From positions 1 to 24,898 of IMG/VR virus record IMGVR_UViG_3300022929_000188: a DNA stretch of 24,898 nt, one strand, 5' to 3'. The notes beneath the pieces are model-generated. The model saw only the letters and a list, made by a program, of their open reading frames with translations. It had not been told where the DNA came from and ran no database searches. Position 1 is the stretch's first letter. Every line of letters begins with the position of its first letter. The translations under genes were made by a program, and so were the position numbers. This document shows, one piece after another, positions 141-15,520 of this stretch. Source of the DNA: a virus.

Positions 141-698
141 TTATTTCTTGGGAATGTCCCAGATCTGCGGATCTGTTAGCTGGAACCCTAACCCGTTAAA
201 ATGCCGTTTCACCTCATCCAGAAAAGCTCCATGCTGGGCAATGTTCATTGCTGACGTAACGGGAAAGTCGAACGGTTCAACCATCAATTCTAGCTTTTGC
301 TCGTAAGCCATTGGCCTGATAATTCGGTCGTACTTGGCTCGATACTCGGGGCTATCCCTGCGGAGAATGGGAACCCCAAAATGCAGCTTGCAATAAGCTC
401 GATACTCCCATGCCTTTTGGTCGCCCTGCGCCTCTGCGTCCCTGAACCATTGCCACTGAGTTCTGTTTTGGGCCAGTGATCTAGCCTTTGACGCCTTCTT
501 GATAACTACGTCTATGGGATACTGTAGCTCGACCTGTTGCAGCATCTTCAGCAAGTTATTTTTGTCCTCTCCATCATGCAAAACCATATGAATTTCGGAG
601 GCTGACAACATACCCCCTAAGTTGCCATTACCTAGCGTTTTAATTTCCGCTAGACGTTGTTTTTGGCGATCTACTACCTTCTGTGACGCTTTCCTCAT
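141..698 (-). CDS. NinB-like recombination protein
   Basis: A protein of 185 residues. The clearest family mark is KKASKARSLAQNRTQWQWF around residues 67-85, matching the RS-x-x-QN block of the NinB / YbcN-type phage recombination family, followed by YCKLHFGVPILRR (about 102-114) and a FPVTSAMN segment near 147. NinB-type proteins bind single-stranded DNA and modulate phage recombination. The first 30 residues are lysine- and arginine-rich with no recognised domain. The start ATG overlaps the stop of the preceding gene as ATGA, so translation is probably coupled. Position directly before ninG supports the call. The match is by motif memory only; a general phage recombination mediator is the alternative. 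Confidence 0.6.
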   Translation of the reverse strand: MRKASQKVVDRQKQRLAEIKTLGNGNLGGMLSASEIHMVLHDGEDKNNLLKMLQQVELQYPIDVVIKKASKARSLAQNRTQWQWFRDAEAQGDQKAWEYRAYCKLHFGVPILRRDSPEYRAKYDRIIRPMAYEQKLELMVEPFDFPVTSAMNIAQHGAFLDEVKRHFNGLGFQLTDPQIWDIPKK

Positions 699-1186
699 CT
701 GAGCCTCGCAAACATTCGCTTAGTTTCGGCAATCTGATCGTCGGTCACTTCGTAAAGCGACTTTTCGCCGGTTATGCAGACATCATGATGATACTGGGTA
801 AACGTAAAAGATCGACAGACTCGGCAAACCGTGGTGTCTCGGCTTGGTCTATGGGCTGGCTCTAACTTGATCTCCTCCAACATTTCCTTGAACTCACCCA
901 AGGTCGGGGCGAACTTCTTAAACTTCTCGACGACCTGAATTGTTGCTCTGTGGATTAATGCCTGATCGTAGTGCTTCAAGTATGACCACCACATCTTTTT
1001 GGTCGAAGCGATATCCTCGTCTGAGGTGTCATTCAAGAATGATGGGTAGTTCAACCGCATAACCCCAAACAACTGATTGATATAGCTCTTATCTAATTCC
1101 TCACCAATCTGTGCTGGTTGCGATCTTCGTTGCTGAGTGACGGCGTTGCTGACGATTTTTCTGTTCATAAATTGATTTCCATCCAT
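695..1186 (-). CDS. Lambda P-like replicative helicase loader candidate
   Basis: A protein of 163 residues placed immediately after the O-like initiator, where lambda carries P, the loader that brings host DnaB helicase to the origin. The middle part (LFGVMRLNYPSF near residue 40 to FAPTLGEFKEMLEE near 105) has the helical W-x4-L and APTLGEF pattern common in phage P / helicase-loader proteins. A C-x2-C pair (VCRVCRSF) near residue 120 and a later histidine pair and cysteine suggest a small metal site. The start at 1186 is backed by a strong GAGGAGG ribosome binding site 9 bases upstream, although this makes an 86-base overlap with the preceding gene. Function is inferred from position and weak pattern. 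Confidence 0.5.
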   Translation of the reverse strand: MDGNQFMNRKIVSNAVTQQRRSQPAQIGEELDKSYINQLFGVMRLNYPSFLNDTSDEDIASTKKMWWSYLKHYDQALIHRATIQVVEKFKKFAPTLGEFKEMLEEIKLEPAHRPSRDTTVCRVCRSFTFTQYHHDVCITGEKSLYEVTDDQIAETKRMFARLR

Positions 1187-1811
1187 TGCTATGAGCCTCC
1201 TCGACTAATTCCTTAATATCCTCTCCCTGCTTCGCTAACCTCTCCGCTTTGTTGGCAAGAGTCGCCAAAGCGCGAGCCGTGTTTGTGGCCTTCAATCTGC
1301 TCCGAGTTTTTATGTATTCCTTAAATAACGGAGTATCTACACCCAGCGCATTCATGCGCTTGAAAACGATTTTTATTTTATCTTTCTCTGTATCTGCTTC
1401 TGTATCTGTATCTGTATCTGTATCTTGGGGCGTTACCTTAGCGTTTTGGTGACGTTTTGGTGACGTTTTGGTTTTACTAAGTTTTTGTTTTTCCCGATAT
1501 TTTCGCTGGCGTTCTTTACTAGAATCTGACTTGTACTGACGCTCTTCCCACTTCAATACGTTCCAGTTTTTATCAATCAATTTAACATCTGTAAGACGCT
1601 TTCTAAGCTCATCTAAGGCGGGAAGTTGCAACCCTAGCTTAACGGCTAAAGATCTGTTTATAAACTCTGGGTCTGCGCTATCGAAAAGGCCAGACTGCTT
1701 GCAAGCTAGCAAGGCTATAAAGTGCCATCGATCTTCAAATGCAAGTAGCCGCATCTTGTGGTTATCGACGATATTGGTGTATACTCTGAACCAAGGTAAA
1801 CCATCTGACAT
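1101..1811 (-). CDS. O-like / replisome organizer replication initiation protein
   Basis: A protein of 236 residues starting MSDGLPWFRVYTNIVDNHKM. This opening, with the LLACKQSGLFD and INRSLAVKLGL segments, is the winged-helix N-terminal domain of phage replisome-organizer proteins (lambda O / DnaD / DnaT-like), which bind the phage origin. A lysine-rich linker (about 95-125) and an acidic run of DT dipeptides (about 130-137) precede a helical C-terminal domain ending NGWKSIYEQKNRQ, resembling DnaT/DnaD tails. GGAG lies 7 bases before the ATG. The linker DNA holds three 11-bp repeats and a hexamer run, annotated separately as a possible origin, as in lambda where ori lies inside O. The gene is the second of the Cro-like operon. 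Confidence 0.7.
   Translation of the reverse strand: MSDGLPWFRVYTNIVDNHKMRLLAFEDRWHFIALLACKQSGLFDSADPEFINRSLAVKLGLQLPALDELRKRLTDVKLIDKNWNVLKWEERQYKSDSSKERQRKYREKQKLSKTKTSPKRHQNAKVTPQDTDTDTDTEADTEKDKIKIVFKRMNALGVDTPLFKEYIKTRSRLKATNTARALATLANKAERLAKQGEDIKELVEEAHSNGWKSIYEQKNRQQRRHSATKIATSTDW
1391..1426. repeat. Hexamer tandem repeat (GATACA type)
   Basis: Six units in a row: TATCTG, CTTCTG, TATCTG three times, TATCTT. On the coding strand these give a run of Asp-Thr dipeptides with one Glu-Ala interruption. Unlike the neighbouring 11-bp repeats, this run keeps the reading frame whenever a unit is gained or lost, so it can vary in length without breaking the gene. Confidence 0.85.
1440..1472. 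repeat. Three 11-bp direct repeats (iterons)
   Basis: On the plus strand: AGCGTTTTGGT, GACGTTTTGGT, GACGTTTTGGT, with no spacer. They lie in the linker-coding part of the O-like gene and are out of phase with codons, which suggests they are kept as DNA sites, probably bound by the O-like protein itself. Confidence 0.8.
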
Positions 1812-2105: not shown

Positions 2106-2142
2106 CAAATTATAAGCACAGATTGATTGTCTCGTAAAGTCT
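2106..2142 (-). promoter_or_regulatory. Early promoter for the Cro-like/replication operon
   Basis: On the minus strand a perfect TATAAT -10 box (2107-2112) lies 17 bases after a weak -35 box (TTACGA), about 22 bases before the start codon at 2084. The poor -35 suggests a weaker or activator-assisted promoter. It is the counterpart of lambda pR by position. Confidence 0.6.
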
Positions 2143-2199: not shown

Positions 2200-2436
2200 A
2201 TGCAGTGCGAAATAGAAAAAGATGTAGCTATCCCAGACAAAATGTCTTACGGGCGCAAGAGAAATAATTGGTTGAAAACCATAGAGGTAGGCAGCTCAAT
2301 AATTGTAGATTTGCCTGAACCACTCATGAGAGCAAAGGAAGTTTCAAGAATTAGGAATTTGATGAGGATTAGAAAAATGGGATCTGTTCAACGCAAAGTA
2401 TCAAAGACCGCCGTTAGGATTTGGAGGACAGCATGA
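2200..2436 (+). CDS. Small conserved-type phage protein, function unknown
   Basis: A protein of 78 residues, basic and without membrane segments. It begins with an EIEKDVAIP motif, then a basic GRKRNNWLKTIEVG stretch, a SIIVD strand and a C-terminal VRIWR. I recall small phage proteins with the same layout (EIEK start, basic patch, ME/IEVGDSF-like centre, VRVWR end), often near replication genes, but no function is known to me. It is the first gene after the strong plus-strand promoter, with ribosome binding site CGGAGAAGGAA. Its stop overlaps the next start as ATGA, so it is probably made together with the annealing protein. The arginine-rich end could suit nucleic-acid binding; that is a guess. 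Confidence 0.7.
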   Translation: MQCEIEKDVAIPDKMSYGRKRNNWLKTIEVGSSIIVDLPEPLMRAKEVSRIRNLMRIRKMGSVQRKVSKTAVRIWRTA

Positions 2437-3188
2437 GCGTCTGGAAAACACTTAGCGCAATTGATGTAAATCAACATACTGAACGAAAAGGGCAATTTAC
2501 TTATTTAAGTTGGACGTGGGGGTGGGCAACCTTGATGGAGCACTATCCAGAATCGACCTATGAGTTCCTACCCAACGAAATCCACAACGATGAGTCTGTG
2601 ACTGTTCACTGTAAAGTGACGGTTGAAGGAATAAGCCATACGATGTGGTTAGCTGTCATGGACAACAAGAACAGAGCGATTAAAAACCCATCTGCAACTG
2701 ATATCGCTAACAACAAGATGCGTTGTTTGGTAAAGGCTTTGGCTATGTTTGGTCTAGGGCATTATATCTATGCTGGCGAAAGTTTGCCCGCTGTCAATTT
2801 GTATGAGGAATTGCATTTAGTGGTTGAACAGGGGACGCCACAAGATCTTATAGAGCACTTAGAAAGCATGTCTGAAGATCAGCAATCAGAGGCTTTTAAC
2901 GGCGCACCAAAGGGCCAAATAACTAAGTTTAAGGAGCAAGTAAGGCAAAAACAAAAACAAGCTCACGATGAGTTAAGCGGAATAGCTAACGCTATGCGTG
3001 TATCAATGTCTGAGGAAGATAGGTATGGCATTGATGAAGTTTGGCAAGAATGCACGAAATTGCAAAAGAAGCTAGTTTGGGCAAGGTTCACAGATCAGGA
3101 AAAGCATTTGTTTAAAGCAATCATGCAACCGGACACCGCTGGATCTCCAATTGACATAGCAGATTATTCACAAAAGAAAGGAAGGTAA
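2433..3188 (+). CDS. Single-strand annealing protein, Sak3 / DUF1071 type
   Basis: A protein of 251 residues. The N-terminal half carries the DUF1071 (Sak3) pattern: IDVNQHTERKGQFTYLSWTW near residues 10-29, where the YLSW-W-A core is typical, then a hydrophilic strand region and SATDIANNKMRCLVKALAMF near 85-105, with GLGHYIYAGE after it. Such proteins pair complementary single strands during phage recombination, working with an SSB, which follows here. The C-terminal half is charged and helical. The ATG at 2433 is preferred over the TTG at 2421 because GGAGG sits 5 bases before it and the ATG overlaps the upstream stop. No partner exonuclease gene is seen in the window. Confidence 0.8.
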   Translation: MSVWKTLSAIDVNQHTERKGQFTYLSWTWGWATLMEHYPESTYEFLPNEIHNDESVTVHCKVTVEGISHTMWLAVMDNKNRAIKNPSATDIANNKMRCLVKALAMFGLGHYIYAGESLPAVNLYEELHLVVEQGTPQDLIEHLESMSEDQQSEAFNGAPKGQITKFKEQVRQKQKQAHDELSGIANAMRVSMSEEDRYGIDEVWQECTKLQKKLVWARFTDQEKHLFKAIMQPDTAGSPIDIADYSQKKGR

Positions 3189-6930: not shown

Positions 6931-7192
6931 CAGTCCAAACCGCCGCGCAGATGTCTTGAACTATTTGAACGTATCCCGATACATCCGTGGGATTGCCGTC
7001 AGCGTCATACCTGTTCAGGTAGGTGACATGATTAGAAACTGCTGGCAATTCTGCATCATCTGCATCGTCAAAGGTAATTTCCATCACAACCATCAATCTT
7101 GGATTGCCTTCGTTAGTCGTAGCCTCTGCGCTTGGATCTGATGCAGGGTAAGTTTCGCACCGTTGTAAAACTTCAGTCTTGGTTATGGTCAT
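6923..7192 (-). CDS. Small phage protein of a fibre-adjacent type, unknown function
   Basis: A protein of 89 residues: MTITKTEVLQRCETYPASDP, then an acidic strand region (VVMEITFDDADDAELPAVSN), a NRYDADGNPTD turn resembling a calcium-binding-like loop, and a VQDICAAVW end. Proteins with this opening (EV-x-QRCE-x-YP) and ending commonly follow phage fibre genes in my memory. The AAGGAG site lies 9 bases before the ATG, and the gene overlaps the fibre gene's end by 20 bases. Function is unknown; it may be a structural accessory. Confidence 0.6.
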   Translation of the reverse strand: MTITKTEVLQRCETYPASDPSAEATTNEGNPRLMVVMEITFDDADDAELPAVSNHVTYLNRYDADGNPTDVSGYVQIVQDICAAVWTDD

Positions 7193-10100
7193 CTTTTAGC
7201 TCCTTGATTTGGGTTTTTAACGCATCTATCTCTTTTGATAAATCCTTGATTGCTTCAATTGCCAAGCCCATCATTTGTCCGTACCGAACTGCCAAGAACG
7301 AATCCCCGTCTTCGCTCCTGCCAACCTCTGATGCTTCGTAAATAACCTCTGGCAATACCTTTTGTACTTCTTGCGCAATCACGCCAGTTGACCTAGATCC
7401 GTCTTTTTTATAGTTAAAAGTAACTCCCGTCAGAGACTTAATTTTATTAAGAGCATCAGGGATTGTTTCTATGTTGTCTTTAAGGCGTATGTCAGAAGCA
7501 GACCCATAGGCAGTTATATTTCCTTCTGCCGTGATATTTCCGTTAGCTAAAAGCTCAATGCTGTAATTGCTGGCTACGCCGTTGTCTGTAGTTGAATCGC
7601 TATTCCCTACATAAAAAGGGTTATATCCTGAACTGGTTAGTGATTGCCCAACGTAAAGCCTAGTTGCCTGACCGGAAGATCTAACGTCGAAAATAGAACC
7701 GTTGCCGCTAGGGTTGGACGCTGTGCGTAAAGTTATTCCAGCGCCAGAATCATTTGAACCATTGGAGTTGCTTTCAAAGTAGACGTCACCCCTGCCGACG
7801 TTGAAAATTGTTGTGCCGCCTGTTTCACTGTTACCTTGAATGCTTTGTATATTGACAAGGTTCCTACTAGCGTCTATGACCGTAGACCCGCTTATCTTAA
7901 ATGCGCTTGAGGAGATCGTGCTGTTAAAGGTGGCTGCATAATTAACGGTCAAAAGCCCGTCTGCGGTTATCAACATTGCTGCATCAGAAGTGTTTTTTCT
8001 TACCTCAAAAGCCTTCTGGCTGGCAGAATTTGAAGCCGTTATTACTAAAACCCCATATCCTGACGCATGAGAGTTTTCAATTCTGCCAGCCCAATCATCA
8101 GATACAGCATCATCAACATCTAATAAAGCTGTTCCTCCAGCTCCTCCGTTAAGCAGTATCCTCCCAGCGACATCTATATTTGCAGAAAGAAAAAGGTTTT
8201 TAAAAGGCAAGCTGGCAGTGCCGAAGCTCACGTTATTGTTATAAGTTACGCCATCCTCTGTGACAGGTACTATCCGATTATTGTCCTTGTCAAGCTGTAG
8301 TCCCAAGCCATCAGTCGTAGCAATGTAAATCCTATCAGTAGCAACACTTCCGATTTTTCCGTAGTCACCGATATTTAAAGTTTTGCCATTCTCTAATCTT
8401 GCGGCAGATTCTATTAAAGTAAAAACATTGGTAGTCTGAACCGCGACCCCTGAAGATACGTTGCTCAAAAGCTCAAAATACATTGCTGCGCCGCTAGACG
8501 AATCTGTATTAACCTCTATCCGAGCAGCGTTTCCATCTTGTTCAGGAGTGCCATTCTCATGATTCCATGTGACGTTCGCATTCCCGTAGCCATCATTTAT
8601 TGTTAAAGCAACTCCGCCAGATCCATCTCCTGATTGAATGTTTTCGGTTGTTTTTATAATGCCAGTGCTAGTAATCGCGACAATGTTAGTCAGGTTGCGT
8701 GAGGCATCCATAAACTGTGTTGTGCCGTTTCTCAAAATGACTCCAGCATTACTCAACCCCCTGAAATATATGTCCGCGTCTTCGGATAATATGAAGAGGG
8801 AGCTTGTGGTGTGAATTTCATTTGGATCAAAAGCGAGAGTGTTAATTCCATCGGTTATGATGGAGTATCCGTTTGCTACTGTTGCACCGCCAATGGTGCC
8901 TGAAGATGTAATTGTATGCCTACCAGAAGAGATAGTACCGGCAACTATATTACGACTAGCGTCGATGACAACCGTGGTTCCCATTTCTAGTGAGCCAGTC
9001 GCAATGCGTACATTGGTTTTTGGCTCAAGGATAATGTCAGCCTTAGCGTCAGCAATACCAGCAGCGTCAAGACCTAGATAACCGCCATAAGTACCGCCAG
9101 CGTTCGTGCTAATTATCAGATCACTGTCAGCGGTTGTATCATTTGTGTAGCCTATGCCAATGGCGTTCCCATCATTGTTGCTGAATAAAATTTTTCCTTC
9201 AGCACCGCCACCACCGCCATTACCCGTGTCAGATAACGTAAGAAGAGGCGAGTCATCAAATAGCGTTACGTCTGTAAACGTACCCGCTCCAGTAGCACCA
9301 ATTCTGGTAGCGCCGCCCATTCTTAGCTGACCACTAACGATGTTCATGCCACCAACACTATTGAATTCAGCTACAGCCGCATTGTTGTAGTGGATCTCTA
9401 CACCGGCAGTCCCGTCGTAAATAACGATGCCGTTATCTTGCTGGGCGTTTTTAATTGACCAATCACCGCCAGTCTCGGTAAAGGTCAGATTGTCTGATCC
9501 ACCTTTTAGCGTAAGCTCAAAAAATTTACCCATCCCAGAGGAATCTATTTCGAAAACATCGTTCGTCGCTCCAGCGCGGAAAGTAAACCCATCCGTCGAG
9601 TGGTCGTACCTAATCCGCCCAACAGCATTATCTGTGGTATCTCCAAACCAAACGTAACTGCTACCTCCATCGTTGGTTTGAATCGCAATACCCGCAACGC
9701 CTGAATCTGCCGCCACAAGCTGAGCACTTGGGTTCGGTGTACCTGAGATCGAATTACCAGTGAAGACCGATTGTTCAGATGCAGTGATAGCGCCAGTAAA
9801 AGTTGCGCCAGAAGAGCCGATGCTCAATTGATTCCCGTAAAGACCAACGCCCAATGATAGAAAGTTGCCAGAGGTATTAACTATTCCTCGAACTGATGCT
9901 ACGTTTGTTCCGTCTGATTCTCTGAACTGAATGGCGGGAGTTGCCATTTCATTGGTGTTGTCAAAACTTGTTTTTGAATCTACCAAAACACCTATTGAAC
10001 TTTCTGCGCCTACTGCCCACAAATATGGATCGCCTTTAACGCCACCATTGCCAGTAACTTGCCCAGAGCTAGTAATAGCGCCCGAAGAGATGGTGCCAAT

Positions 10101-11057
10101 ATTGGTTAGGTTGCGGCTAGAGTCAATGACGGTTGTGCCATTGATGTTATAGCCGCTTGTAACCTCTATGACACCTTCGTCACCGTCCAGCCAAATCTTG
10201 CCTGTCCCGTTGGTAATGACACCAAAGCCCCAGCCATCATTAGCTGTCCAACTGAATGCAGATGGGCCAACAGAACCACTGCGGCTCATTGTTATACCGT
10301 ACATTCCGCTGGCATCAGTGTCAGACGTGGGAAGGTAGTTGTTTCCAATCACATAGATCGGATTAATCTTATCTCTGTTGTTTTCGATGCTGTCATGGCC
10401 GCCGATCTGGAAGCCGCTTAAGTGACTGCCGATGCGCTCAAAATTGCCATCAGACGTAACCCGCACGTCCTCGTTAAGGTACAAAAGTCCAGAACCTCCA
10501 TCGCCTGAATTGATGTAACTATTAGTGTCATCAGTCCATAGCCTCATTGACCTACCACCAGTAGAGTCAAGAATCCCTATGCCACTTTCGTCGTTATTTG
10601 CCTCTTGGTTGACTTGCAATAGACCATATGAGTTTTGCTGAACTGTGTCGCCAATTTGTACTTGATCGGCAAACACCGCAGCCCCGGTCAGCGTCCCACC
10701 AGCCAGAGGCAAATATGTGCTACTGGCTGATGCAGTCGTTAGCATCTGCGTCCACGCATAAAACGTACCGCCATCTGCGCGACGAATGTATAACTTCCCG
10801 CTGCTGCTAGACCCCCAAGCAATCTGAATTTTCTGGTTTGGGTCGGTCATTTGATACATGACCATGTAACTCGTTGGTGCGTTTGTCGGTTGACTAGATG
10901 CCCACTTATAAAACCCATCATTCAAAGAATCAAGATCGTCAGAGCTTGTTAAAGTTTCGCCATCAATCTCTACTTGCGGAGATCTTATTTTGTGGCTGAA
11001 TAAAAAAGAATCGCTCGCGGTCTTCCAGAGAATAGAAGCATCGGTGGTTGTGTCCAC
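7173..11057 (-). CDS. Giant tail fibre with C-terminal S74 self-cleaving chaperone domain (5' end in doubt)
   Basis: A frame of 1294 residues, glycine/serine/threonine-rich. Repeated fibre blocks of the type VID(A/S)SRNL recur (coding near 10120, 8960, 8700 and 7870), typical of trimeric beta-structured fibres. The last 107 residues are an intramolecular chaperone (Peptidase_S74): SDIRLKDNIETI at 1188-1199 gives the serine-lysine pair (Ser1188, Lys1193) used for self-cleavage after trimerisation, then GVIAQEVQKVLPEVI and a final coiled coil. It should form the long receptor-binding fibre. The first usable start is a GTG at 11057, but it has no proper ribosome binding site and coding clearly continues upstream in this frame to about 11189; see the frameshift entry. 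Confidence 0.85.
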   Translation of the reverse strand: MDTTTDASILWKTASDSFLFSHKIRSPQVEIDGETLTSSDDLDSLNDGFYKWASSQPTNAPTSYMVMYQMTDPNQKIQIAWGSSSSGKLYIRRADGGTFYAWTQMLTTASASSTYLPLAGGTLTGAAVFADQVQIGDTVQQNSYGLLQVNQEANNDESGIGILDSTGGRSMRLWTDDTNSYINSGDGGSGLLYLNEDVRVTSDGNFERIGSHLSGFQIGGHDSIENNRDKINPIYVIGNNYLPTSDTDASGMYGITMSRSGSVGPSAFSWTANDGWGFGVITNGTGKIWLDGDEGVIEVTSGYNINGTTVIDSSRNLTNIGTISSGAITSSGQVTGNGGVKGDPYLWAVGAESSIGVLVDSKTSFDNTNEMATPAIQFRESDGTNVASVRGIVNTSGNFLSLGVGLYGNQLSIGSSGATFTGAITASEQSVFTGNSISGTPNPSAQLVAADSGVAGIAIQTNDGGSSYVWFGDTTDNAVGRIRYDHSTDGFTFRAGATNDVFEIDSSGMGKFFELTLKGGSDNLTFTETGGDWSIKNAQQDNGIVIYDGTAGVEIHYNNAAVAEFNSVGGMNIVSGQLRMGGATRIGATGAGTFTDVTLFDDSPLLTLSDTGNGGGGGAEGKILFSNNDGNAIGIGYTNDTTADSDLIISTNAGGTYGGYLGLDAAGIADAKADIILEPKTNVRIATGSLEMGTTVVIDASRNIVAGTISSGRHTITSSGTIGGATVANGYSIITDGINTLAFDPNEIHTTSSLFILSEDADIYFRGLSNAGVILRNGTTQFMDASRNLTNIVAITSTGIIKTTENIQSGDGSGGVALTINDGYGNANVTWNHENGTPEQDGNAARIEVNTDSSSGAAMYFELLSNVSSGVAVQTTNVFTLIESAARLENGKTLNIGDYGKIGSVATDRIYIATTDGLGLQLDKDNNRIVPVTEDGVTYNNNVSFGTASLPFKNLFLSANIDVAGRILLNGGAGGTALLDVDDAVSDDWAGRIENSHASGYGVLVITASNSASQKAFEVRKNTSDAAMLITADGLLTVNYAATFNSTISSSAFKISGSTVIDASRNLVNIQSIQGNSETGGTTIFNVGRGDVYFESNSNGSNDSGAGITLRTASNPSGNGSIFDVRSSGQATRLYVGQSLTSSGYNPFYVGNSDSTTDNGVASNYSIELLANGNITAEGNITAYGSASDIRLKDNIETIPDALNKIKSLTGVTFNYKKDGSRSTGVIAQEVQKVLPEVIYEASEVGRSEDGDSFLAVRYGQMMGLAIEAIKDLSKEIDALKTQIKELKDDHNQD

Positions 11058-11161: not shown

Positions 11162-14100
11162 CTACGGTGGTAGTTGTGCCTTGAACCGTAGGTCTCCAGT
11201 TACAACTAGATTCCCAGAAACAGTGCCGCCGCCAGTGGGTACAGAGGGCGTACCATTTGCAAAAACATTTGCCGCGCTTTCCACAAAGTTAATTTCTGAT
11301 GATCTTAATTCGTATAAGCGATTTGATGTTGACTGCCCAGCAGCAGACGGTGATCCCGATCCTGTAATAGTCGATGACAATTTAACTTTGTGAACGCCAG
11401 CCGGTAGGTTTGTAAAAGTGTGGCTAGTTACAACGTAGGCGGTCGCGCCGTAGGTGTTAGTATTTGCGATGTACTCTAATGCGCCGCCAGCATCCATTAA
11501 AATTGATCGATATTCCTGAATACCGCCAGCTATATATACCGCAGTGACGTATATTTCTGTACTGCTCGGAGTTGAATCAGTGCTGGTGAAAGTGATCGGC
11601 TTGGTTGCTGCGGTGCTATATGATCCGCCATCGGTTTGTAAGCTGTAAATTATATTGAGGGTCGAGTTTGTAATATCTGACTTTGCCGCAGCTTCAGTTG
11701 CTCCAGACCCGTAAAAATAAAGAGTGCCTACCGAGTTGTCGTAAATAGCAAATTTGGTCTCAAGCGTTACCGTTGCAGTTTGATCTAGCGTCAGCGTCAT
11801 CTCGCCGCCATCACCTGACAAAACGCCGCTTACTTTATCGACTGCCGTTCCTGAAGTGAGCGATATTCCCGCCAGCGCAGCAGCGCCTAGTCCGTCTTGA
11901 TTGAGCAGGATGTTTCCAGAAGCATCAAAAACTGTAATATTTTTAGCGAAAACAGAACCATCAGGCTTAACTTGGAACGGCGCATTTTCACTTTCTGACT
12001 CTGCGGCTCCGCTAAAGATTCTATAAGTTGCGTCGGTTGCTCCGTCAACAACAGTCGTCGCATCACCAGATCCAGCAATAAACTTTGAATCAGTGCTAAC
12101 GTCTCCAGTAAATGCACCAGCAGAGGCGTTTACAGTTCCGGTGAATGTTCCGCTTGTTGCGGTAATGTTTCCGGTAACGGCCAAATTTGTACCGTCAAAC
12201 GTGAGTGACTCGGTGCTTGAATTGCCTATGCTGAATTTATAGGCAGTTGAGTCGTATCCAAGGAAGAAGCCTGTGCCGGTGTTGTAGCCACTTTGACCGC
12301 CCTTGATAGAGCCGCCACCTGCCATCGTGATACCGCCATCCTGAATCGTTACGCCTAACGCTAGGTCACTGATTGATCCGAATTGAAAATCCTCAATGGT
12401 GTGCGTTCCATTATTAGCGTCATCATCAATCGCAATATGCGTGTAAAGTCCATCGGTAATGGGCGAAGAGGAAAGATCGACGGTTCTTTCGACCACTCCG
12501 TTGATGATGTATTTAATTTTTTCATCGTCATAAACAACCGCACAAACATCTCCGACATTCAAGGTTGATTTTAAAGTTGCGACATTCGATCCAGATTCAT
12601 AAGCGAGAATATCTGGCGTTGAGGCAGATCCTCGAATGTAAATCGCGTAGTCAATATCAGTGTAGCTCGTGCCAGTATTGGCATCAGCCAAGCCAATCAT
12701 ATAGCGGATGTTAGTATCGCCTGCGCTCTTTACTCTGAATGAAACGAAGGCTCCATTCTTAAATGCTTTGTCGCTGACCAGCTTGTGATTCCAGCTATAA
12801 GTTCCGTTTACTTGCGTCCATGTGACGAGAGATCCGTTTACCGCTGGAGAAAATGCGGTTTGACCTATGCTTGTAAAAGATACAAACGGAGTTCGCGTAA
12901 ACGCAGATGAAGCTTCGATCGTAGCGCCTTCTGCTATTTCTAAAGATGTTGCGGTGATTGCCCCTGTAATTGTGGCATTAGTTGCCGTCAATGCCCCTGC
13001 CCGTGTAACTCTAAAAGGCGCGTCTGCAAAAGTGTTATCGCCCAGACTGATTCCATCAGATGTGGAAAGAGATACTCTAGTAGCCTCATCCCCGGCTGTC
13101 AGGCTCGTAGATCCAACAGTGAAACCGCCTATTGTTCCAGTGCTTGCAGTAATTGATCCTGTAATTGTGGCATCAGTTGCTGTTAATTCCCCTGCCGGTG
13201 TAACACGAAATGGGGCGTCTGCAAAAGTGTTATCGCCTAAGCTAATTCCGTCAGAGGTGGATAATGAAACTCTGGTTGCTTCATCTCCTGCTATAAGGTC
13301 TGTGCTTCCAACAGTAAAGCCGCCTATAGTCCCTGTCGTTGCGGTAACGTTCCCTCTAACGACTGCGTTCTGAAAAGTAGCAGATCCACTTCTATTTATT
13401 TGCCATCCGGTTTCCTCTTGGACGCTCCAGTTGTCAGATTGAATGGTAGTTGCTATCTGCTCTGAGCCAACAGCGCTGTCAATAATCTGCGCTGTATTAA
13501 TAGAGTCCTCACCCATAACTCCAAAGCCAATCTTGGTCGCGCCGATCTTGGCTGGATTACTAGCGATCATTACCGATTTTGAAGCATTAGAACCGCTGGC
13601 CGGTGTAGACCCCTGCGGATACCTTACTGCTTGTATCCAGTAGTAATATTCAATTGCGTTGCCTTGTGAGTCTGCTGCGGCACGTTGATCTGTGTAGCTT
13701 GTTCCTCGGAACTTAACGATTGGGGTGTCGCTATCTGTTGGCGTTGTTCCAGTGGTATTTCTGAAAACCCAGATTTGCTCCCAAGCTAAAGCGTTTGACG
13801 GGTTGTCCCACGCCAACTCAATTGCATTTATAGCTGCGGTTATGCCAAAGTTTGTAGGTGCCGGAACGTCTGGAAGGTTTCTAGCAATAACGCCTTGAGC
13901 TGTGATCGTAGAATAATCGGCTGGAAGAGGATCAGCATAACGAATTGCTACGCCGTTTGAAAACTCTCCTTCTTCAAGAAGGGTTAGGTTGATGCCACCG
14001 CTTCCATTTTCAGCAAACGACCAGTTTATACATTTAAATATCTTTGGGTTCCACTCGCCTGCATCTACGCTTTCTAAGTCCGACAAGTAAACATTCACCC

Positions 14101-15520
14101 TGTCGCCAACTGCAATACGCATCCCCTTCAGATTAACGGGGACGGTTATCATCGTCTGCAAGAAAGACTGATTGACTTGCTTAAATGCTATTCGTTGAGC
14201 TGCGTATCGGTTATCGGTAAACGGTAACTTAATTTCTTCTTCTAACGTCTCGCCGTTATCCCTAGCAATCGCGCCTGATACTGTAACAGGGCCAAACTCC
14301 ATCATCTTGTATTGCTCTGTGGGATCAATGAACAATCCCTTGATCTGATTTAAACGATCAGATCTTGGTATGGCGGTTCTGATATCAACTTCGCCAATAA
14401 TATCGTCTTCAGTAATGGATTCAGTTGGCGCGAAATAAACTCCAGCTCTAACTATGTACTTACCTTGGCTATAAACCAAAGACCCATTCATGCCGCTTAA
14501 TATCTTCTCAATAGACTTGGCGTATGGATCAGCGCCGAAGATGACGCCGCTACCGAAGAATCGTTTCTGTGTGGCAGAGTTAGGGATGTCAACTAAAGTA
14601 TCGCAATCGTCAGCAGCCGCTATAATCGCCGCCCAGTCTATTTTGCTCGATGGGATACCTAAGCCAAACTCGCTGTCCATAAGGTAATCAGCAATCATTA
14701 ACGCAGGATTTCTACCTTGCTCACCTCGATCGATTGCGCCAGTGCTTAGGCTGTTGTCATCATATACAACATAGCTAGCATTAGTTGGGCTTGCGCCAGC
14801 AGTACCGCCAGCGTCAACCTCTAAGCGAGGATCGTAGATCTTCTTGCCTTTAACCAAGGCTTTGATGTTTTGAACACTACCAACCTCGTCCCATACTTCC
14901 CGAGAGCCTTCGTTAATAGTCCAACGGGTATATAGGCTGGCTACGTTATCACCACGATGAGTCGCTAGATATTCTGTAGAAGTTGTCGAGTCTGCTCGCA
15001 ATCCTGAATAAGCAGTTTGTGACGATGTGCCTAGACGAGTATCTATGTATACAACAGTCTCGCTAACTCCGCTCTCATTGTTTTTAGGGCCAAAGAATCC
15101 GCTAATAACAGATTTGCTTCCAGAGTTATAGACGCTGGCGTTAGTTAGATCTATTGACTTGTCATCTAAAAACACTTTGCTGATTTGCGTTAGCTCATGA
15201 CCAGCCAAAGCAACAACTTGATGTAAGTATTTATTATTCGCGCCAGATACCTGAGCGTAAGTCAACGGCCCGCTAACCATTGTCTCGCCGTATATTAACT
15301 TTCTAGGTTCTGTGGTAGATCGTACTGTGGTCTGTCTGCTGCGGTCGTTATCATCAACCGAGAAATTAATTTTAGGCTTTAATAGCTTGGATGCTGCGAA
15401 TACACCACCAACGATTGCCGCCGCACCAATGACTGCTGCTGTCGTTCCAGTGGCAGTGGCAAATGTAACAAAAGATCCGACCGCTTTTAAAAATGCAACT
15501 ACTGGTGGCATAACTTCCAT
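11162..15520 (-). CDS. J-like tail tip protein (host specificity), probably fused to the fibre before a frameshift
   Basis: A protein of 1452 residues. A hydrophobic helix (about 10-45) is followed by the tail-hub part with SREVWDEVGSVQNIKALVKG and a PALMIADYLMDSEFGLGIP block (about 272-290) typical of lambda J and its relatives. A fibronectin-III-like domain lies at about 550-650 (DVPAPTNFGITAA to YYYWIQAV), then two 65-residue repeats (730-859), a lectin-like beta domain with LVTWTQVNGTYSWNHKL and YIINGVVERTV (about 875-1055), and fibre-type sequence to the end. J proteins close the tail tip and bind the host. The C-terminus runs into SGNLVVTGDL and then abruptly changes to an unrelated LRFKAQLPP ending. 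Confidence 0.85.
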   Translation of the reverse strand: MEVMPPVVAFLKAVGSFVTFATATGTTAAVIGAAAIVGGVFAASKLLKPKINFSVDDNDRSRQTTVRSTTEPRKLIYGETMVSGPLTYAQVSGANNKYLHQVVALAGHELTQISKVFLDDKSIDLTNASVYNSGSKSVISGFFGPKNNESGVSETVVYIDTRLGTSSQTAYSGLRADSTTSTEYLATHRGDNVASLYTRWTINEGSREVWDEVGSVQNIKALVKGKKIYDPRLEVDAGGTAGASPTNASYVVYDDNSLSTGAIDRGEQGRNPALMIADYLMDSEFGLGIPSSKIDWAAIIAAADDCDTLVDIPNSATQKRFFGSGVIFGADPYAKSIEKILSGMNGSLVYSQGKYIVRAGVYFAPTESITEDDIIGEVDIRTAIPRSDRLNQIKGLFIDPTEQYKMMEFGPVTVSGAIARDNGETLEEEIKLPFTDNRYAAQRIAFKQVNQSFLQTMITVPVNLKGMRIAVGDRVNVYLSDLESVDAGEWNPKIFKCINWSFAENGSGGINLTLLEEGEFSNGVAIRYADPLPADYSTITAQGVIARNLPDVPAPTNFGITAAINAIELAWDNPSNALAWEQIWVFRNTTGTTPTDSDTPIVKFRGTSYTDQRAAADSQGNAIEYYYWIQAVRYPQGSTPASGSNASKSVMIASNPAKIGATKIGFGVMGEDSINTAQIIDSAVGSEQIATTIQSDNWSVQEETGWQINRSGSATFQNAVVRGNVTATTGTIGGFTVGSTDLIAGDEATRVSLSTSDGISLGDNTFADAPFRVTPAGELTATDATITGSITASTGTIGGFTVGSTSLTAGDEATRVSLSTSDGISLGDNTFADAPFRVTRAGALTATNATITGAITATSLEIAEGATIEASSAFTRTPFVSFTSIGQTAFSPAVNGSLVTWTQVNGTYSWNHKLVSDKAFKNGAFVSFRVKSAGDTNIRYMIGLADANTGTSYTDIDYAIYIRGSASTPDILAYESGSNVATLKSTLNVGDVCAVVYDDEKIKYIINGVVERTVDLSSSPITDGLYTHIAIDDDANNGTHTIEDFQFGSISDLALGVTIQDGGITMAGGGSIKGGQSGYNTGTGFFLGYDSTAYKFSIGNSSTESLTFDGTNLAVTGNITATSGTFTGTVNASAGAFTGDVSTDSKFIAGSGDATTVVDGATDATYRIFSGAAESESENAPFQVKPDGSVFAKNITVFDASGNILLNQDGLGAAALAGISLTSGTAVDKVSGVLSGDGGEMTLTLDQTATVTLETKFAIYDNSVGTLYFYGSGATEAAAKSDITNSTLNIIYSLQTDGGSYSTAATKPITFTSTDSTPSSTEIYVTAVYIAGGIQEYRSILMDAGGALEYIANTNTYGATAYVVTSHTFTNLPAGVHKVKLSSTITGSGSPSAAGQSTSNRLYELRSSEINFVESAANVFANGTPSVPTGGGTVSGNLVVTGDLRFKAQLPP
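11180..11200 (-). other. Frameshift point between J-like and fibre frames
   Basis: At about 11190 the J-like frame reads VVTGDL and then RFKAQLPP and stop, whereas the -1 frame continues with TVQGTTTTVDTDNLTVKDNN, natural fibre sequence that has no start codon before 11057. Adding one base after GAC-CT would give VVTGDLTVQG and a single frame of about 2750 codons. No slippery heptamer is present here, so a deletion or a sequence error is likelier than programmed slippage. Confidence 0.7.
12963..13352 (-). repeat. Tandem 195-bp coding repeat in the J-like gene
   Basis: Two adjacent units (12963-13157 and 13158-13352) each encode 65 residues with the pattern GTIGGFTVGST, AGDEATRVSLSTSDGISLGD, NTFADAPFRVT. 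The proteins are nearly identical but the DNA differs at many third codon positions, so the duplication is old and kept at protein level. Such units probably form repeating beta modules in the stalk. Confidence 0.85.

Follow-up and report, generated by a model that had tools for sequence, protein, structure and literature searches.

The interdomain linker of the O-like replication initiator in the viral DNA analysed here, a stretch of 24,898 nucleotides hereafter called the window, is very probably encoded by a phage replication origin, in which a GTNACG array would serve for binding and a GATACA tract for melting. We observed the repeats, a constraint on them at the DNA level, a conserved order of the elements, an association between one initiator residue and one base of the repeats, crossover at the tract and low stability, while binding, melting, helicase loading and origin activity are inferred. 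The likeliest interpretation is an origin within the gene that functions in the manner of lambda ori or the RepA_N rep genes, membership of neither having been demonstrated. An origin inside the O-like gene had been proposed in an earlier, sequence-only reading and is supported, being consistent with all comparative tests that were run and having no rival cluster in the window, with origin activity remaining unproven. The window being only a 24.9-kb fragment, the genome could still have an origin outside it.

The initiator gene and its surroundings are arranged as follows:

1101-1811, minus strand: O-like replication initiator gene, the proposed origin carrier, an open reading frame of 236 amino acids (PHROG profiles, about 100 relatives).
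695-1186, minus strand: P-like (P/G39P-like) helicase loader gene, directly downstream of the initiator (PF11417, E 6.4e-7; PHROG 109, E 4e-5).
141-698, minus strand: NinB-like gene, downstream of the loader.
2433-3188: Sak annealing protein gene, divergent from and neighbouring the initiator gene.
2109-2138, minus strand: inferred promoter-like site ahead of the initiator operon (TTTACG-18-TATAAT, 10/12 matches).

Profile searches matched residues 3-141 of the initiator to PHROG 3926 (replication initiation protein, E 1.3e-12) and residues 98-226 to PHROG 678 (O-like, E 1.7e-8), the O-like match being confined to this second part. The AF2 model of the protein consists of a helical N-domain, a basic helix (residues 98-114), a low-confidence linker (residues 115-136) and a helical C-domain; the repeats at 1368-1472 fall in and beside the linker, which is disordered in the model, between the N- and C-domains. 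When the fold of the N-domain was searched, four of the five best matches were plasmid initiators (5kbj, 4pql, 4pt7 and 4pta, Z 6.8-7.5), although matches at this level may reflect only a common arrangement. Foldseek by itself returned no match at E<0.001, the PDB sequence search gave chance matches only, and Pfam did not detect the RepA_N domain PF06970 in the initiator at E up to 0.1. No matches were obtained in the Rfam and tRNA searches.

Sites of the TTTACG-18-TATAAT type are no more frequent in the window than in shuffled sequences. The leader AACAAAACGGAG occurs at 1814-1828 and at 2182-2196, ahead of each of two divergent early operons, and its copy before the initiator start codon is identical in the closest relatives of the window, the remaining leader being variable. 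A terminator-like hairpin followed by a T run is located on the plus strand at 1866-1885, just upstream of the initiator gene and pointing away from it. Elsewhere in the window, a tandem duplication of 195 bp, with 1.9 copies that are 80% alike, was found at 12949-13327 within a large gene (11162-15520), and the C-terminal end of the 1294-aa protein at 7173-11057 (SDIRLKDNIE...TGVIAQEVQKVLPEVI) looks like the intramolecular chaperones characteristic of tail fibres.

The repeated elements within the initiator gene are the following:

1442-1472, minus strand: 11-bp direct repeat array ACCAAAACGTC, 2.8 copies (TRF, period 11, 100% match).
1460-1465, plus strand: GTGACG half-site (CGTCAC in the coding direction), of a type enriched family-wide.
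1449-1454, plus strand: second GTGACG half-site, again CGTCAC in the coding direction, at a distance of 11 bp from the one at 1460-1465.
1431-1436, minus strand: GTAACG half-site, forward, the final one before the tract.
1389-1424, minus strand: GATACA-type hexamer tract (GATACA x4, GAAGCA, GATACA), the proposed melting element and recombination joint.
1368-1388, minus strand: A-rich continuation of the tract, GAGAAAGATAAAATAAAAATC.

The repeats at 1368-1472 were confirmed to be real and are unique in the window. On the coding strand they run from iterons to hexamers to A-rich sequence, the order given in the sequence-only reading, and the A/T-rich stretch which that reading placed at 1368-1386 is present. 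Where it described three contiguous 11-bp copies at 1440-1472, TRF delimited 2.8 copies at 1442-1472 and, taken as three 11-mers, the array comprises two exact copies and one (ACCAAAACGCT) with two mismatches. The hexamer run also exists, shifted by two positions from the claimed 1391-1426 to 1389-1424 (1379-1425 as delimited by TRF). The 11-mers are out of phase with the codons, as that reading said of the iterons, unlike the six hexamer units, which are in phase and encode Asp-Thr and related residues. The 11-mer array encodes TKTSPKRHQNA, without any amino-acid repeat, and no other exact direct repeat of period 7-39 in the window runs as long as its 20 matches with exact 11-bp periodicity (1442-1472). 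When the gene was recoded synonymously 2000 times, a 20-match run at a period not a multiple of 3 never arose. The proposal that the repeat is maintained at the level of DNA rather than protein is supported.

The densest GTNACG cluster of the window is the initiator linker, and no competing repeat cluster was found within the window. The GC skew across the window, a fragment, is monotone with gene direction and was set aside as a guide to the origin. In Silvergun, a 46.9-kb relative, the skew minimum (2,845) and the tract (5,735) are 2.9 kb apart, and the minimum coincides with a switch of transcription direction and is therefore uninformative on the origin.

Relatives were collected by searches seeded with conserved peptides, which yielded 13 close ones, followed by some 90 more distant ones taken from IMG/VR and bacterial genomes. 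Only the window phage and two near-identical contigs have the exact 11-mer, which was ruled out as the family iteron. The unit conserved in about 100 relatives is the half-site GTNACG/CGTNAC, often kept as inverted pairs, and the window's 11-mer contains it as CGTCAC. Related phages lacking the repeats while keeping the protein linker had been named beforehand as a refutation of the origin; taken literally, the 11-mer fulfils this condition, whereas the half-sites do not. The linkers of 43 non-redundant relatives contain 165 GTNACG sites against 67 +/- 7 (maximum 85 of 300 recodings, 2.5-fold) after synonymous recoding with the codon usage of each gene itself, and 109 occurrences of AGATACAG against 6.

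GTNACG sites occur in both orientations and in all codon frames. Sites in the same orientation are most often 11 bp apart (27 of about 50), opposite-orientation pairs are mostly 5-7 or 16-17 bp apart, and the last site is forward in 73/87 relatives, its commonest distance to the tract being 2-6 bp. As to helical phasing, these preferred spacings are clear and the circular test cannot tell 10.5-11 from 12 bp. The linker of L018 reads GTGACG-N9-CGTCAC...GTGACG and that of L010/L024 reads GTAACG-N9-CGTTAC...GTAACG, every site having changed in concert. Against the proposed origin count the relatives L041-L056, which have few exact half-sites, namely one GTAACG together with GAAACG sites. In two initiator genes (L088:2933-3958 and L106:2245-3258) the linker contains HNH-like endonuclease sequence at the expected iteron place, and L080, a sister of L088, is without this insert.

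Inverted half-sites might also form a DNA or RNA hairpin that is itself the functional element, an explanation that can hardly be maintained. A 7-bp stem is possible in L018 (z -3.2) and in L010, but the window has no significant fold (z -0.64) and the orientation and spacing of the sites differ among relatives; a hairpin or attenuator was rejected as not conserved. It is also very improbable that the array serves another protein as an operator or regulatory site, for autoregulation or for a promoter within the gene, and is no origin. The position of the array is by itself no proof of replication, and a similar leader with AAAACG stands before both early operons; however, no promoter-like site is found at the array, which always adjoins the A-rich tract within the initiator linker and varies with the initiator's own basic helix, and other families carry other arrays at this place.

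The codons of the helix in question lie as follows:

1492-1518, minus strand: basic-helix codons (about residues 98-106), including Q102, whose identity is associated with the GTNACG middle base.

The association was evaluated on 100 N-domains with less than 90% identity, 75 of which had a clear middle base. By far the most informative column on this base was the residue following the conserved Arg of the basic helix, in the motif R101-X102-..-Y105-R106, where X is Gln (Q102) in the window. Among these 75 N-domains, Val occurs in 36/40 with A as middle base, Thr (13), Gln (4) or Ser (1) in the 18 with G, and Lys in 17/17 with C. On a tree built excluding the basic helix the class of the middle base changes about 18 times. 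Well-supported branches provided only 5 independent pairs, of which about 4.8 agree and none oppose, with p 0.06 because 5 pairs cannot get to 0.05. Two reservations apply, since the column was chosen as the best of about 100 and a short module of basic helix and linker, inherited as a unit, could account for part of the association, the helix and the sites being less than about 100 bp apart. That residue 102 touches the middle base of the iteron is our inference, made without binding data. In L286:734-1423 (and N-domain row L366_92) Ser occupies the specificity position and the sites are GCAACG/CGTTGC instead of GTNACG, hinting that the code might reach the second base as well.

The hexamer tract is also constrained as DNA. 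Asp codons in the Asp-Thr block are GAT and GAC in a ratio of 145:2, compared with 251:296 elsewhere in the same genes, and Thr codons are ACA in 144/150 cases compared with 75/326 elsewhere, a bias that persists in genes of more than 58% GC. In 73% of 85 genes the 50-bp segment with the lowest GC content within 400 bp is at the tract, a result partly built into the test, and no fold was predicted for the window's tract on either strand. Since the Asp-Thr frame is near-universal, a protein-level preference also acts on the tract, and one may suppose that the tract is a protein feature altogether, a disordered Asp-Thr linker of acidic character that grew by slippage, its codon purity being a by-product and the origin, if any, consisting of the iterons only. 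This would agree with the Asp-Thr frame of 77/80 tracts among the matches listed and with the fact that slippage keeps repeats pure. It is nevertheless improbable, as Asp-Thr tracts of other phage proteins use all codons whereas initiators use nearly only GATACA, and as the bias is not lost in GC-rich genes; moreover, L080 encodes a similar DNA tract in a different frame (QIRVDKIREE), and (AGAAG)n tracts, with their 5-bp period, cannot be an amino-acid repeat. A reading of the hexamer as a DnaA-trio was ruled out on inspection, no 3'-GAT-5' runs being present.

When IMG/VR was scanned for (GATACA)4 at the DNA level alone, at least 70 usable genes were obtained. Among the matches listed, 63/70 belong to replication-initiator families with the tract in the linker, and these 63 are divided into 37 with the window N-domain type or distant kin, 13 YdaU/primosomal proteins and 13 further types. 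When (Asp-Thr)4 was scanned in any codons, the non-GATACA tracts among the matches listed were mostly in structural or unassigned proteins; ten (Asp-Thr)4 proteins with other codons were scanned singly and none matched a replication family (Fisher p 1e-8, limited to singly scanned proteins). A group scan did include replication families among the matches listed, 24 weaker families falling outside that list, and those included are explained by L394, a GATACA-coded member.

Upstream of the tract, family-specific repeats of the GAACGC, TCAACG, TGTCCG and AACGAATC types were found, and upstream 6-mer repeats exceed recodings at p<0.05 in 36/66 genes (1266 in total against 380, 3.3-fold). The same layout is present with GATACA units in Rac-SA53 ydaU, D14H and Silvergun and with (AGAAG)n in place of GATACA in PfDIW6 and SPN1S, and lambda has GACACAAAAGACAC and A-rich sequence at the corresponding place. 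The initiator linker of L277:4019-4834 contains TTATCCACA (DnaA-box-like), then TGTCCG/CGGACA repeats and then the GATACA tract. Because unrelated initiators share it, the tract resembles an unwinding element and crossover joint more than an initiator-specific binding site. The earlier suggestion of a length-variable part of an initiator binding or unwinding region is retained for the variable length, and unwinding is preferred in it to specific binding.

Within the window clade the N- and C-halves of the initiator differ in history, with the switch at the tract. L018 and L022 are 90-100% identical up to the tract and about 60% right after it, L026 and L016 about 60% before and 80-97% after, and L293 and L306, whose N-domains are unrelated, share 27% identity in the 120 bp before the tract and 97% in the 120 bp after. 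C-part families occur across several N-part families, and in the lambda record recombination points are marked directly after the iterons. The tract might accordingly be kept mainly as a joint for annealing-recombinase exchange of the two halves, melting being secondary or absent and the iterons still binding the initiator. The sharp changes of identity at the tract, the C-parts common to several N-part families, the occurrence of the tract in unrelated initiators and the Sak gene adjoining the initiator region (2433-3188) all favour this possibility. On the other hand, a recombination joint has no need for low stability or for a position next to the iterons, the (AGAAG)n, GAGACA and GGATAG types at the same spot in other initiators suggest a physical role rather than one in homology, and crossover at the tract is also expected if selection keeps the N-domain with its own sites. 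We consider a role mainly as a joint rather unlikely but a live rival, compatible with the origin reading, since both can hold.

The intragenic origin we favour has several known counterparts. Lambda ori in gene O likewise has iterons followed by an A-rich tract on the C-side within the initiator linker, with a P-type loader gene next, a NinB-like gene further down and a C-part matching the O-like profile. The likeness to lambda put forward in the sequence-only reading thus holds for this layout and, as was also stated there, the unit is different: lambda has four 18-bp iterons that are imperfect inverted repeats, whereas the window has 6-bp GTNACG half-sites with direct 11-bp spacing, a tract made of a GATACA repeat and an N-domain without a detected match to lambda O. 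In lambda the minimal unwinding unit consists of two iterons and the A-rich region, and O binds single-stranded DNA (PMC7466680).

RepA_N plasmid initiators such as pSK41 Rep have a winged-helix N-domain, mid-gene binding boxes, an ori-coded linker and exchangeable domains (PMC5703833), a plan that the window initiator may share, the likeness of its N-domain resting on fold matches of only Z 6.8-7.5, and in pSK41 Rep this linker can be dispensable as protein (PMC5703833). The window repeats also sit in the centre of the gene, their role as binding boxes being inferred, but in a phage context with a P-like loader. The rep genes of the Lactococcus phages Tuc2009 and TP901-1 have short A/purine-rich linker repeats (GGATAG-type in the former, A-rich 15-mers in the latter), and that of Tuc2009 is annotated with an in-gene origin; the N-domains of both differ from the window's. 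YdaU of the Rac prophage and related primosomal proteins carry the GATACA tract in the linker (Rac-SA53 and many relatives), but with an unrelated N-domain, other repeats (TCAACG/CGTTGA type in several relatives) and, in some relatives, a DnaC-like loader downstream, unlike the P-like loader of the window.

In the mechanism we propose, the N-terminal winged-helix domain and the basic helix would bind GTNACG half-sites about 5-7, 11 or 16-17 bp apart, represented in the window by one GTAACG and by a pair of CGTCAC sites at 11-bp distance. The occupied sites would stop a few bp from the GATACA/A-rich tract, which as the weakest-pairing, unstructured stretch would melt, and the C-terminal domain together with the downstream P-like loader would put the host helicase on the melted tract. 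Initiator genes would recombine at the tract, the phage keeping its matched DNA-binding domain and iterons and swapping the helicase-recruiting half. With only a slight preference over the contrary, we further suggest that family-specific iterons and a common GATACA tract, acting in melting and as the joint for exchange of the C-half, form an interchangeable cassette shared by many tailed phages with unrelated DNA-binding domains, a single residue reading the middle base in the GTNACG family. The shared tract and the one-residue code look new; for the tract this is provisional, as nothing relevant on GATACA or hexanucleotide repeats in phage origins was found in the open-licence literature.

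Intragenic origins have so far been known singly, as in lambda, Tuc2009 and pSK41. An iteron array followed by a GATACA tract in the initiator linker provides a signature, readable from DNA alone, that locates likely origins in uncultured phages and extends over several initiator families. The correspondence of one residue with one base predicts initiator specificity and is testable by a single amino-acid change. Finally, the arrangement suggests a way in which phage replication modules recombine without parting the initiator from its own binding sites.
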